Below, piece by piece: positions 12,547-14,870 of a stretch of 64,000 bases of DNA; position 1 is the first letter of the stretch; the number at the start of each line of letters is the position of its first letter. Position numbers and translations under genes: made by a program. This stretch comes from Chitinophagaceae bacterium (GTDB lineage: Bacteria; Bacteroidota; Bacteroidia; Chitinophagales; Chitinophagaceae). Location of the stretch: positions 186,001-250,000 of the forward strand of contig CANGIY010000003.1 of NCBI GenBank assembly GCA_947454235.1, in the 5' to 3' direction. The notes below the pieces were generated by a model. The model worked only from the letters and a program-made list of their open reading frames with translations. It did not search any database and was not told the DNA's origin.

Positions 12547-13146
12547 CTAGCTCGCTGCACAGATTAATATTGTAGGATTATTGGTATGGATCTCAGCGAG
12601 CGTACTATCGAATTTAGACCTATCAAACGGCCTTGATATTAAATGTACGCCATTCTTTGTAGGAATCTCACAAAGAATTTTATTCCCTTCTGGATTTATA
12701 GCATAGATGTGCTCTGTTATGTTTTTGATATACTGCAAATCCTTGGTATCAACATCAATAATCCATCTCTTACTCTTTTCGTTTGAATACATTCCCGCGC
12801 AAGATGCGTATGCATTCTTAACAGCTTTGAAATCTTTCGTCATAAGCTGATTAGCGATTTTCTGCATTGTATGAAATGCTATTTTCTCAAAGGAACGTCT
12901 GTTCAAATCAATATAAACTCTCGCCATCTTCTCATTTACAAACAACAACAGTTCCTGCATTAATCCTTCCAGGTGTTCAATACTGGAAATATAGTGCACA
13001 GCCAATACCTTTGAGTTGGAACCCAATTCCGGGTTTTCCTTTTTTCTTTGGAGTACTTGCAGGAAATAAAAATCATCCTCGGTCTCAAACTTCAACTGTT
13101 CTTTAATGATGTCAAAATTGTTGATTAATGGCTGGTCTGTTTTCAT
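12547..13146 (-). CDS. Protein of unknown function (199 residues) next to a CRISPR-like remnant
   Basis: This cytoplasmic, soluble 199-residue protein has no signal peptide or membrane helix. The N-terminal half is helical (QVLQRKKENPEL, LEGLMQELLLFVNEKMARVY). The C-terminal half contains an acidic strand (RWIIDVDTKD) and a PTKNGVHLISRPFD segment. These two motifs recall primase/polymerase-like proteins of Bacteroidota and their phages, but a full catalytic triad is not recognisable, so no function is assigned. It lies 75 bp from the CRISPR-like repeats, which in minus-strand orientation point toward it. The ATG at 13146 is followed immediately by good coding sequence. Confidence 0.7.
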   Translation of the reverse strand: MKTDQPLINNFDIIKEQLKFETEDDFYFLQVLQRKKENPELGSNSKVLAVHYISSIEHLEGLMQELLLFVNEKMARVYIDLNRRSFEKIAFHTMQKIANQLMTKDFKAVKNAYASCAGMYSNEKSKRWIIDVDTKDLQYIKNITEHIYAINPEGNKILCEIPTKNGVHLISRPFDRSKFDSTLAEIHTNNPTILICAAS

Positions 13147-13220
13147 AGTTAAATAGGTAATCGGTGGCGCTTAACATCTGTATTCGATTGCTTTTATTTG
13201 GGTAACTATTTCTATTTTTA

Positions 13221-13338
13221 TAAGACCTCTAAGGTACTAAAGTTTGAAAGCAAATCACAACATATGCCGCCAACACAAATTTGTTACCAGCGTTGTGTAA
13301 GACCTCTAAGGTACTAAAGTTTGAAAGCAAAAACGTTT
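13221..13338 (-). CRISPR. Orphan two-repeat CRISPR-like unit (type II-C-sized repeat), no cas genes in window
   Basis: A 34-bp core beginning TAAGACCTCTAAGG and ending GTTTGAAAGCAAA occurs identically at 13221-13254 and 13298-13331, a period of 77 bp. Copy one continues ATCACAAC to 13261; copy two is preceded by GTTGTG from 13292. Together they define a 47-nt repeat with GTTGTG/CACAAC inverted ends, flanking one 30-nt spacer (13262-13291). On the minus strand the repeat begins GTTGTGATTTGCTTTCAAA, which as I recall is how Bacteroidota type II-C repeats begin. Each outer repeat end is degraded. No further copy exists one period up- or downstream, and no cas1, cas2 or cas9 is present. Confidence 0.6.
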
Positions 13339-13425: not shown

Positions 13426-13448
13426 CAGCCGCTATCGAATTGCCCAGT

Positions 13449-14870
13449 ATGGATATCGTTTGTTCGCAACAGGAATTACATTTATTTCAAATCATTGGTA
13501 AAGTGGCTGCTGTCACTGAAACCGAGTGCTACCTCATTGGTGGTTTCGTGCGTGATAAGCTATTAGGTCGCGCAACAAAAGATGCCGACATCGTTACCAC
13601 CGGCGATGGTATTGCCCTGGCGCATGCTGTTGCCGATGTGCTTAAACCCCGCCCTACCGTCAGCTTTTTCAAGACTTTTGGTACTGCTCACATCCGTTAC
13701 CGCGACTTCGATATTGAGTTTGTAGGCGCACGCAAAGAATCATACCGTACTGATTCGCGCAAGCCCGATGTTACACCCGGCACCCTGCGCGATGACCAGC
13801 TTCGCCGAGATTTTACGATCAACGCCCTGGCAATAAGCCTCAACAGCAACGATTTTGGTAAGCTCACCGATCCGTTCAATGGCATTGCAGACATGCAGGA
13901 GTGCCTTATCAAAACACCTCTCGACCCCGATATCACTTTTTCTGATGACCCATTGCGGATGATGCGCGCCATCAGGTTCGCCACGCAACTCAATTTTAAA
14001 ATTATCCCTGAGACCTTTGAAGCCATACGCCGCAACGCAGGCCGCATCAAAATTATTTCACAAGAGCGCATCACCGATGAACTCAATAAAATAATGGCGG
14101 CTAAAAAGCCATCTGTTGGGCTGCACCTGTTGTATATCAGTGGCTTGCTGGAGTATTTTTTCCCTCAGTTTGTAGCACTCGCCGGTGCCGAAACGCGCGA
14201 AGGCAGGGGGCATAAAGACAATTTCTACCACACCCTGCAAGTAATAGACAACCTCGCTGAAAAGTCAGATAACCTATGGTTACGCTGGGCTGCATTATTG
14301 CACGACATTGGCAAGCCACCTTCTAAAAGATATGAAGAGGGGCACGGCTGGACGTTTCATGGTCATGAAGTAGTGGGTGAACGCATGGTGCCTAAAATAT
14401 TCAAGCAACTCAAGCTGCCACAGCACGATAAAATGAAGTATGTGGGCAAGTTGGTGGGATTGCACATGCGCCCAACTTGCTTGGCAAAGGATGAAATCAC
14501 CGATTCAGCCATGCGCCGCTTGTTGTTTGATGCAGGTGAAGACCTGGAAGATTTGATGACCCTGTGCGAGAGCGATATCACATCTAAGAACGAAGCCAAG
14601 GTAAAGCGCTACATGGCCAATTTTGAGCTTGTGCGCCAACGCCTGATTGCGGTTGAGGAAAAAGACAAAATAAGAAACTGGCAGCCACCTATTTCAGGCG
14701 ATGATATTATGGTTATGTTCAACATCACACCATCACGCGAGGTGGGCATATTGAAAAACTGCATCAGAGATGCCATTCTCGATGGCATCATACCCAACAA
14801 CTACGAAGCGGCATTGGCATTGTTGCTTGAAAAAGCTGCGGAATTAGGACTCCACAAAGCAGACGCCTAG
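13449..14870 (+). CDS. cca: CCA tRNA nucleotidyltransferase / poly(A) polymerase-family enzyme with HD domain
   Basis: The 473-residue protein has the class II nucleotidyltransferase head at its N-terminus: GGFVRDKLLGRATKDADIV (residues 31-49) supplies the GG, RD and DxD motifs for metal and NTP binding. The RRDFTINALA and DDPLRMMRAIRFATQL segments follow. An HD phosphohydrolase domain carries RWAALLHDIGKP around residues 278-289. The enzyme adds or repairs the 3' CCA of tRNA; the HD domain adds phosphatase or phosphodiesterase activity in some homologues. The ATG at 13449 is preferred over a TTG at 13440. It ends 4 bp from a convergent glycosyltransferase gene. Confidence 0.92.
   Translation: MDIVCSQQELHLFQIIGKVAAVTETECYLIGGFVRDKLLGRATKDADIVTTGDGIALAHAVADVLKPRPTVSFFKTFGTAHIRYRDFDIEFVGARKESYRTDSRKPDVTPGTLRDDQLRRDFTINALAISLNSNDFGKLTDPFNGIADMQECLIKTPLDPDITFSDDPLRMMRAIRFATQLNFKIIPETFEAIRRNAGRIKIISQERITDELNKIMAAKKPSVGLHLLYISGLLEYFFPQFVALAGAETREGRGHKDNFYHTLQVIDNLAEKSDNLWLRWAALLHDIGKPPSKRYEEGHGWTFHGHEVVGERMVPKIFKQLKLPQHDKMKYVGKLVGLHMRPTCLAKDEITDSAMRRLLFDAGEDLEDLMTLCESDITSKNEAKVKRYMANFELVRQRLIAVEEKDKIRNWQPPISGDDIMVMFNITPSREVGILKNCIRDAILDGIIPNNYEAALALLLEKAAELGLHKADA

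Follow-up and report, generated by a model that had tools for sequence, protein, structure and literature searches.

A short repeat-spacer-repeat unit in the window, as we call the whole 64,000-nucleotide stretch of Chitinophagaceae DNA that was analyzed, is in our assessment what is left of a chromosomal type II-C CRISPR array, now cas-less, collapsed and probably in decay, a reading to which we give a probability of about three in four. The unit occupies the minus strand between a gene related to phage genes and a chromosomal gene that diverges from it, and its parts and surroundings are as follows:

13338-13292, minus strand: repeat 1, 47 nt, matching the reconstructed repeat at 40/47 positions, with positions 1-7 lost
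13291-13262, minus strand: spacer, 30 nt
13261-13215, minus strand: repeat 2, 47 nt, 44/47 intact, differing at repeat positions 42, 44 and 47
13260-13229, minus strand: promoter-like layout in repeat 2, composed of TTG (13260-13258), N21 and TACCTTAG (13236-13229)
12547-13146, minus strand: phage-family gene (199 aa, phrog_14949), downstream of the unit in crRNA sense, function unassigned in phages
13440-14870, plus strand: chromosomal gene for a tRNA nucleotidyltransferase of the CCA-adding type, diverging from the unit

An earlier note on this DNA had described a 34-bp core recurring at 77 bp and, from the two copies combined, a 47-nt repeat around a 30-nt spacer. We found the 34-nt core to be identical in both copies at a lag of exactly 77 bp and recovered the same repeat and spacer by combining the copies, so that the two-repeat unit is confirmed as real, with its bounds corrected from 13221-13338 to 13215-13338. 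The order of 47, 30 and 47 nt with a 77-bp period agrees with repeats of around 46 to 48 nt alternating with spacers of around 30 nt, and the genome holds two repeats where a full array would show at least three with several distinct spacers. The exact run of 34 bp is the longest in the window at any lag from 20 to 300; the longest over the same lags was 17 once the unit was removed and 11 in one shuffled copy of the window. Even when as many as 3 mismatches are allowed, only two places in the whole genome (G000; 4,168,351 bases in 47 contigs, completeness 100) carry the core, both of them in the unit, which rules out a dispersed repeat, the outcome that the earlier note had named as speaking against its reading. 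The copies differ at 10 positions (1-7, 42, 44 and 47), all at the outer ends, which agrees with the earlier description of both outer ends as eroded, except that the 3' end of repeat 2 has suffered less than this description implied. With 0 differences among 34 core positions, the upper limit of the pairwise difference is 8.4 percent (95 percent confidence), and the identity of the cores implies that the decay is recent or the core constrained.

The relatives of the repeat place the unit among CRISPR loci. The reconstructed repeat is identical at 43/47 positions to that of the Chitinophagaceae MAG Jr-7aug17-4, against a best of 28/47 in 100,000 in-register shuffles, and at 40/47 and 39/47 to those of two members of the window's genus, Flavipsychrobacter stenotrophus (G202) and Jr-7aug17-102 (G198); four further family members share 29-37/47. 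All three of these closest arrays also resemble the unit in their 76-78 bp spacing. The contig of Jr-7aug17-4 (CANGSR010000091.1) carries cas9, cas1 and cas2 together with an array that reaches the contig end, and in G198 cas1, cas2 and an array are accompanied by a partial cas9 at a contig edge, of which the C-terminal part is present (cas genes assigned by Pfam/NCBIfam). This makes the unit's repeat homologous to those of cas9-cas1-cas2 loci, whereas in the window itself we see two repeats and found no cas gene. Among 195 family genomes, the first 19 nt of the repeat (1 mismatch allowed) were present in 55, and a Cas9 match was found in 47 of these 55 genomes versus 19 of the 140 others (Fisher p 1.8e-21, in a sample in which related genomes are not independent); the window's own genome is among the 8 that bear the repeat without Cas9. 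When loci of other genomes were fetched by the repeat start, 22 of 29 had at least two copies, with a commonest spacing of 76-78 bp in each of the 22 (L027 is irregular) and repeats mostly of 47 nt. A degenerate repeat pattern picked out five stretches of the genome_contigs collection, which belong to two Chitinophagaceae MAGs (one being Jr-7aug17-102) and F. stenotrophus RB1R16; the genus-type arrays found in this way all lie in cellular genomes or MAGs. Rfam returned four matches, all under the gathering score, among them CRISPR-DR49 with 20.4 bits versus 41. For comparison, the type II-C repeats of Bacteroides fragilis measure 47 bp and their spacers 29 bp, and repeats of up to 48 bp are described in the same source as exclusive to type II-C and found especially in Bacteroidetes (PMC5704556). 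Judged by its sequence, the unit is CRISPR DNA of the type II-C kind. The core claim of the earlier note, an orphan Bacteroidota type II-C unit, is supported by the family's cas9-cas1-cas2 repeats and the co-occurrence with Cas9, and the repeat's relation to II-C loci disposes of the objection, anticipated there, that it might belong to no CRISPR repeat family.

F. stenotrophus offers a further view of such loci within the genus. Its array is longer than the window's unit and lies between two genes that by eye resemble integrases (L080/L081, G202:C21:46163-47410), and its genome, 98 percent complete, likewise has no Cas9 match despite this array. The sequence past the last repeat continues into an adjacent, truncated-looking frame (L081 1255-2247, minus strand). 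The same genome contains a solitary genus-type repeat with an eroded 3' end (L079 3199-3245, G202:C21:240198), next to which no second copy of the repeat start adjoins. None of the papers searched treats Flavipsychrobacter together with CRISPR.

Of the machinery that a type II-C array would need, Cas9, Cas1 and the tracrRNA were sought throughout the genome and Cas2 within the window. A profile built from three family Cas9s (A1) had no match there; we used this family profile because PF18541, which did not match in the genome either, rang in no control. A1 matches 1 of 11 genus genomes and 66 of 195 family genomes, and a profile from its alignment, applied to proteins, detects the closest relative's divergent Cas9 at 2.6e-31. 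PF01867 (Cas1), which rang in 9 of 14 controls and scores the Cas1 of G198 at 111 bits and that of Jr-7aug17-4 at 105 bits, had no match in the genome. These negatives carry weight because the profiles do detect the Cas9 and Cas1 of relatives. Within the window, eight query proteins revealed no relic of cas9, cas1 or cas2 better than E 0.2, in line with the earlier statement that it contains no cas gene; of the cas genes that the earlier note proposed to seek across the genome, Cas9 and Cas1 were not found at that scale, and Cas2 was without a match within the window. A 19-nt anti-repeat with at most 3 mismatches matched the genome in the array, in a terminator-like hairpin and once more elsewhere, as many times as its reversed control, and a tracrRNA tail motif gave 15 matches, all with 3 mismatches, versus 16 in its control, which leaves the anti-repeat search suggested earlier at control level. 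A tracrRNA candidate at G000:C17:6226 was rejected as the stem of a terminator-like hairpin, read by eye. Since the anti-repeat of Jr-7aug17-4 itself has 4 mismatches to the query, for which 3 were allowed, a divergent lone tracrRNA could be missed. By these searches, the genome would seem to hold none of the cas9, cas1 and tracrRNA with anti-repeat that characterize a functional II-C system.

The wear of the two repeats can be read against the polarity of better-studied arrays. In Flavobacterium columnare, type II-C arrays are described as having repeat-encoded promoters, in which a TTG precedes every spacer by 33 bp, and as being transcribed towards the variable end (PMC8092290). The arrays of F. 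psychrophilum, with repeats of 46 bp, are described in the same way (PMC10309648), and both resemble the unit in the repeat-encoded TTG element and the direction of transcription but, unlike the window, belong to systems with Cas9. By analogy, repeat 1, the first in crRNA sense, would be the old end of the array, and repeat 2, the last, its variable or leader side. In a survey of relatives' array ends, which counted loci of one array once and would let terminal repeats eroded below 23/47 escape, the first repeat was eroded at its outer end in 4 of the 14 arrays readable there (L017, L087, L089 and, mildly, L047; L044, whose first repeat differs next to assembly Ns, was left out of this count), and the repeat at the 3' end was intact in 15 of the 16 arrays readable at that side, with L048 ambiguous. 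The worn start of repeat 1 therefore has parallels in relatives, whereas the survey gave no parallel for the worn end of repeat 2; with the last repeat intact in 15/16 arrays, the loss at this end is not ordinary array wear.

Our reading of the unit as a remnant would accommodate both ends. By comparison with relatives, promoters in the repeats would once have driven crRNA transcription on the minus strand, in the direction of the variable end, and the crRNAs would have served a Cas9 that worked with a tracrRNA. The array would then have collapsed, probably via recombination between repeats, to the old-end repeat, one spacer and the variable-end repeat, and Cas9, Cas1 and tracrRNA, whose former presence we infer, would have been lost, with the outer repeat ends now decaying. 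Such a collapse, followed by loss of the leader and the cas genes, would account for the worn start of repeat 1 as well as the worn end of repeat 2. Today the unit probably makes no functional guide, because the searches turned up no effector and the TTG is gone from repeat 1, which would drive transcription of the spacer. Several points weigh against the remnant. Besides the identical cores, the unusual wear of repeat 2 and the tracrRNA that could be missed, the window gave no relic of cas9, cas1 or cas2 to mark a former cas site, and the promoter-like layout of repeat 2, intact and placed upstream of a gene, could mean retained use. Among the three readings offered by the earlier note, that of a dying array fits best.

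The spacer gave no clue to a target. It had no exact match at 30, 23 or 20 nt in viral contigs, no copy but itself in 11 genus genomes and no second match in its own genome (3 mismatches allowed in both). The matches listed for phages and plasmids, 8 of the 22 rows in the case of phages, had E of 2 or more. The comparison with phages and plasmids proposed earlier has thus produced weak matches only among those listed, and no protospacer was found in viral contigs, genus genomes or these listed matches.

An inherited location of the unit beside the CCA gene did not emerge when seven window genes were compared by tblastn with the CCA loci of nine genus members. The comparison covered 10 sequences, with flanks of about 1.5 kb that were shorter where a contig ended, and matched the CCA gene only. 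In G196, a genus-type array starts about 1.4 kb downstream of the CCA-adding gene and is cut by the contig end (L082; G196:C405, contig end 7125-7156); what by eye looks like a worn first repeat precedes this start at a distance of one spacer.

The gene on the other side of the unit is of phage kinship. Its 199-aa protein matches phrog_14949 at 1.5e-34, and a search of phages gave matches at E up to 1 in 34 records. In 25 of these records the match spans 80 percent or more of the length, and the best has 35.7 percent identity (6e-37); relatives include proteins of Cellulophaga phi17:2, Tenacibaculum pT24, Prevotella Lak and the crAss-like cr116_1. Among 394 family genomes, the gene is clearly present in G000 only, with one marginal match in G197, and its G+C content is 0.365 versus 0.421 for the window. 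A related-locus search with the protein found no match in genomes or viral contigs, a weak negative since tblastn in phages did match; profile comparison gave no PDB relative, and a single-sequence structure model was set aside for its mean pLDDT of 42.5. The family conserves W-I-I-D-V-D and G-x-H residues, which we take to recall motifs of archaeo-eukaryotic primases, and PADLOC relates 39 residues of the protein weakly to a model of type III restriction enzymes (E 0.0003). The phi17:2 homologue adjoins a tRNA nucleotidyltransferase gene, as the 199-aa gene does here in divergent orientation; no such gene is annotated within 2-3 kb of the homologue in four other phage records, in which most genes are called "hypothetical."

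The neighborhood of this gene gives rise to the alternative most worth a test, namely that the promoter of repeat 2 now transcribes the phage-family gene 12547-13146 and that the remnant has been kept for that reason, which we regard as unlikely though conceivable. Bacteroidota promoters of this type have an allowed spacing between their TTG and TAnnTTTG elements. Compared with this pattern (PMC8092290, PMC10309648), repeat 2 retains TTG-N21-TACCTTAG, and transcription is predicted to start near 13223, 77 nt before the ATG at 13146 and on the strand of the gene; repeat 1 keeps TACCTTAG without its TTG. The spacer's own promoter would accordingly appear damaged and the outward-pointing promoter-like layout intact, and a takeover of the promoter after loss of cas9 would explain why the layout was kept in the outward repeat and lost in the one that would drive the spacer. 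Promoters embedded in repeats are indeed reported for the II-C arrays of F. columnare and F. psychrophilum, as described above, but for Riemerella anatipestifer the authors found none in the repeats (PMC5006608). Moreover, an outward orientation is a property of any last repeat in such an array, TACCTTAG is one base off TAnnTTTG, and the restriction of the gene to G000, bar the marginal match, leaves no other pair to compare.

The phage-related gene, with its many phage relatives and deviating G+C content, would also suit arrival with a mobile element, in which case the unit would be a phage-type mini-array with a host-like repeat, aiming the host's Cas9 at rival phages and left beside a phage gene. 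One-spacer mini-arrays are known from viruses (PMC6858448, PMC11656645), and arrays of the wider repeat kind occur in two contigs of the viral collection (L103 and L104). We nevertheless consider this origin improbable: the phage-like protein is one of seven window proteins scanned around the unit, the other six not being phage-like; the repeat is absent from all seven phage loci examined (best 26/47); the genus-type pattern has no match in viral contigs and, where found, sits in cellular genomes or MAGs; and no protospacer was found. The virus-borne mini-arrays share with the unit one or two spacers between repeats, but they lie in viral genomes and have host-like repeats (PMC6858448, PMC11656645), whereas no viral genome surrounds the unit and no other host array of its repeat was found. 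Even less probable is an arrangement that the earlier note had considered, in which the solo array still functions with a Cas9 encoded at another place in the genome. In its favor, both the spacer and the inner ends of the repeats are preserved, but the lack of a match to Cas9 (by A1, or by PF18541, for which no control rang), to Cas1 or to a tracrRNA above control level, in a genome assembled into 47 contigs with completeness 100, argues against it and leaves it unsupported. Least credible of all is the earlier note's remaining reading, a repeat-derived regulatory RNA, here taken as acting without Cas proteins: the predicted fold contains a hairpin of the spacer and inner repeat ends, but folding gave no positive evidence, since the unit's RNA has an unremarkable fold (z -1.37) that was equalled by 17 of 200 shuffles, and the spacer is without a second match in the genome at 3 mismatches.

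Apart from these alternatives, one of the viral-collection contigs deserves mention in its own right: L104 (IMGVR_UViG_3300029998_001016), filed as viral, has a three-repeat array of II-C type with a degenerate first repeat; the frames next to it resemble, by eye, cas1 and cas2 on one flank and phage genes on the opposite one.

Set beside known orphan loci, the remnant is a further example of orphan arrays and not a new kind. The CRISPR2 loci of Enterococcus faecalis (PMC4580645) and R. anatipestifer (PMC5006608) likewise have no adjacent cas genes, but they are reported in many strains of species that can also carry cas genes, whereas the unit was seen in one genome, in which Cas9 and Cas1 were not found. 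An orphan array of B. fragilis beside hipAB, for which its authors raise gene regulation as a possibility, is similarly short, cas-less and gene-adjoining but, unlike the unit, has 24-bp repeats and is ubiquitously close to hipAB in the species (PMC5704556). CreTA modules are also similar in having two ectopic, partly degenerate repeats of which the first is more degraded, but they need a Cascade effector and a toxin RNA (PMC9458426), whereas the window's repeat is of type II-C kind and Cas1 was not found in the genome.

As a remnant, the unit is ordinary but well documented. It illustrates how a type II-C array may end, with two repeats, one spacer and no machinery found, in a genus where cas genes or longer arrays occur in some of the other members. 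If the promoter of repeat 2 did prove to have been taken over by the neighboring gene, the unit would give a tangible example of CRISPR repeats that have left immunity and turned into regulatory DNA.
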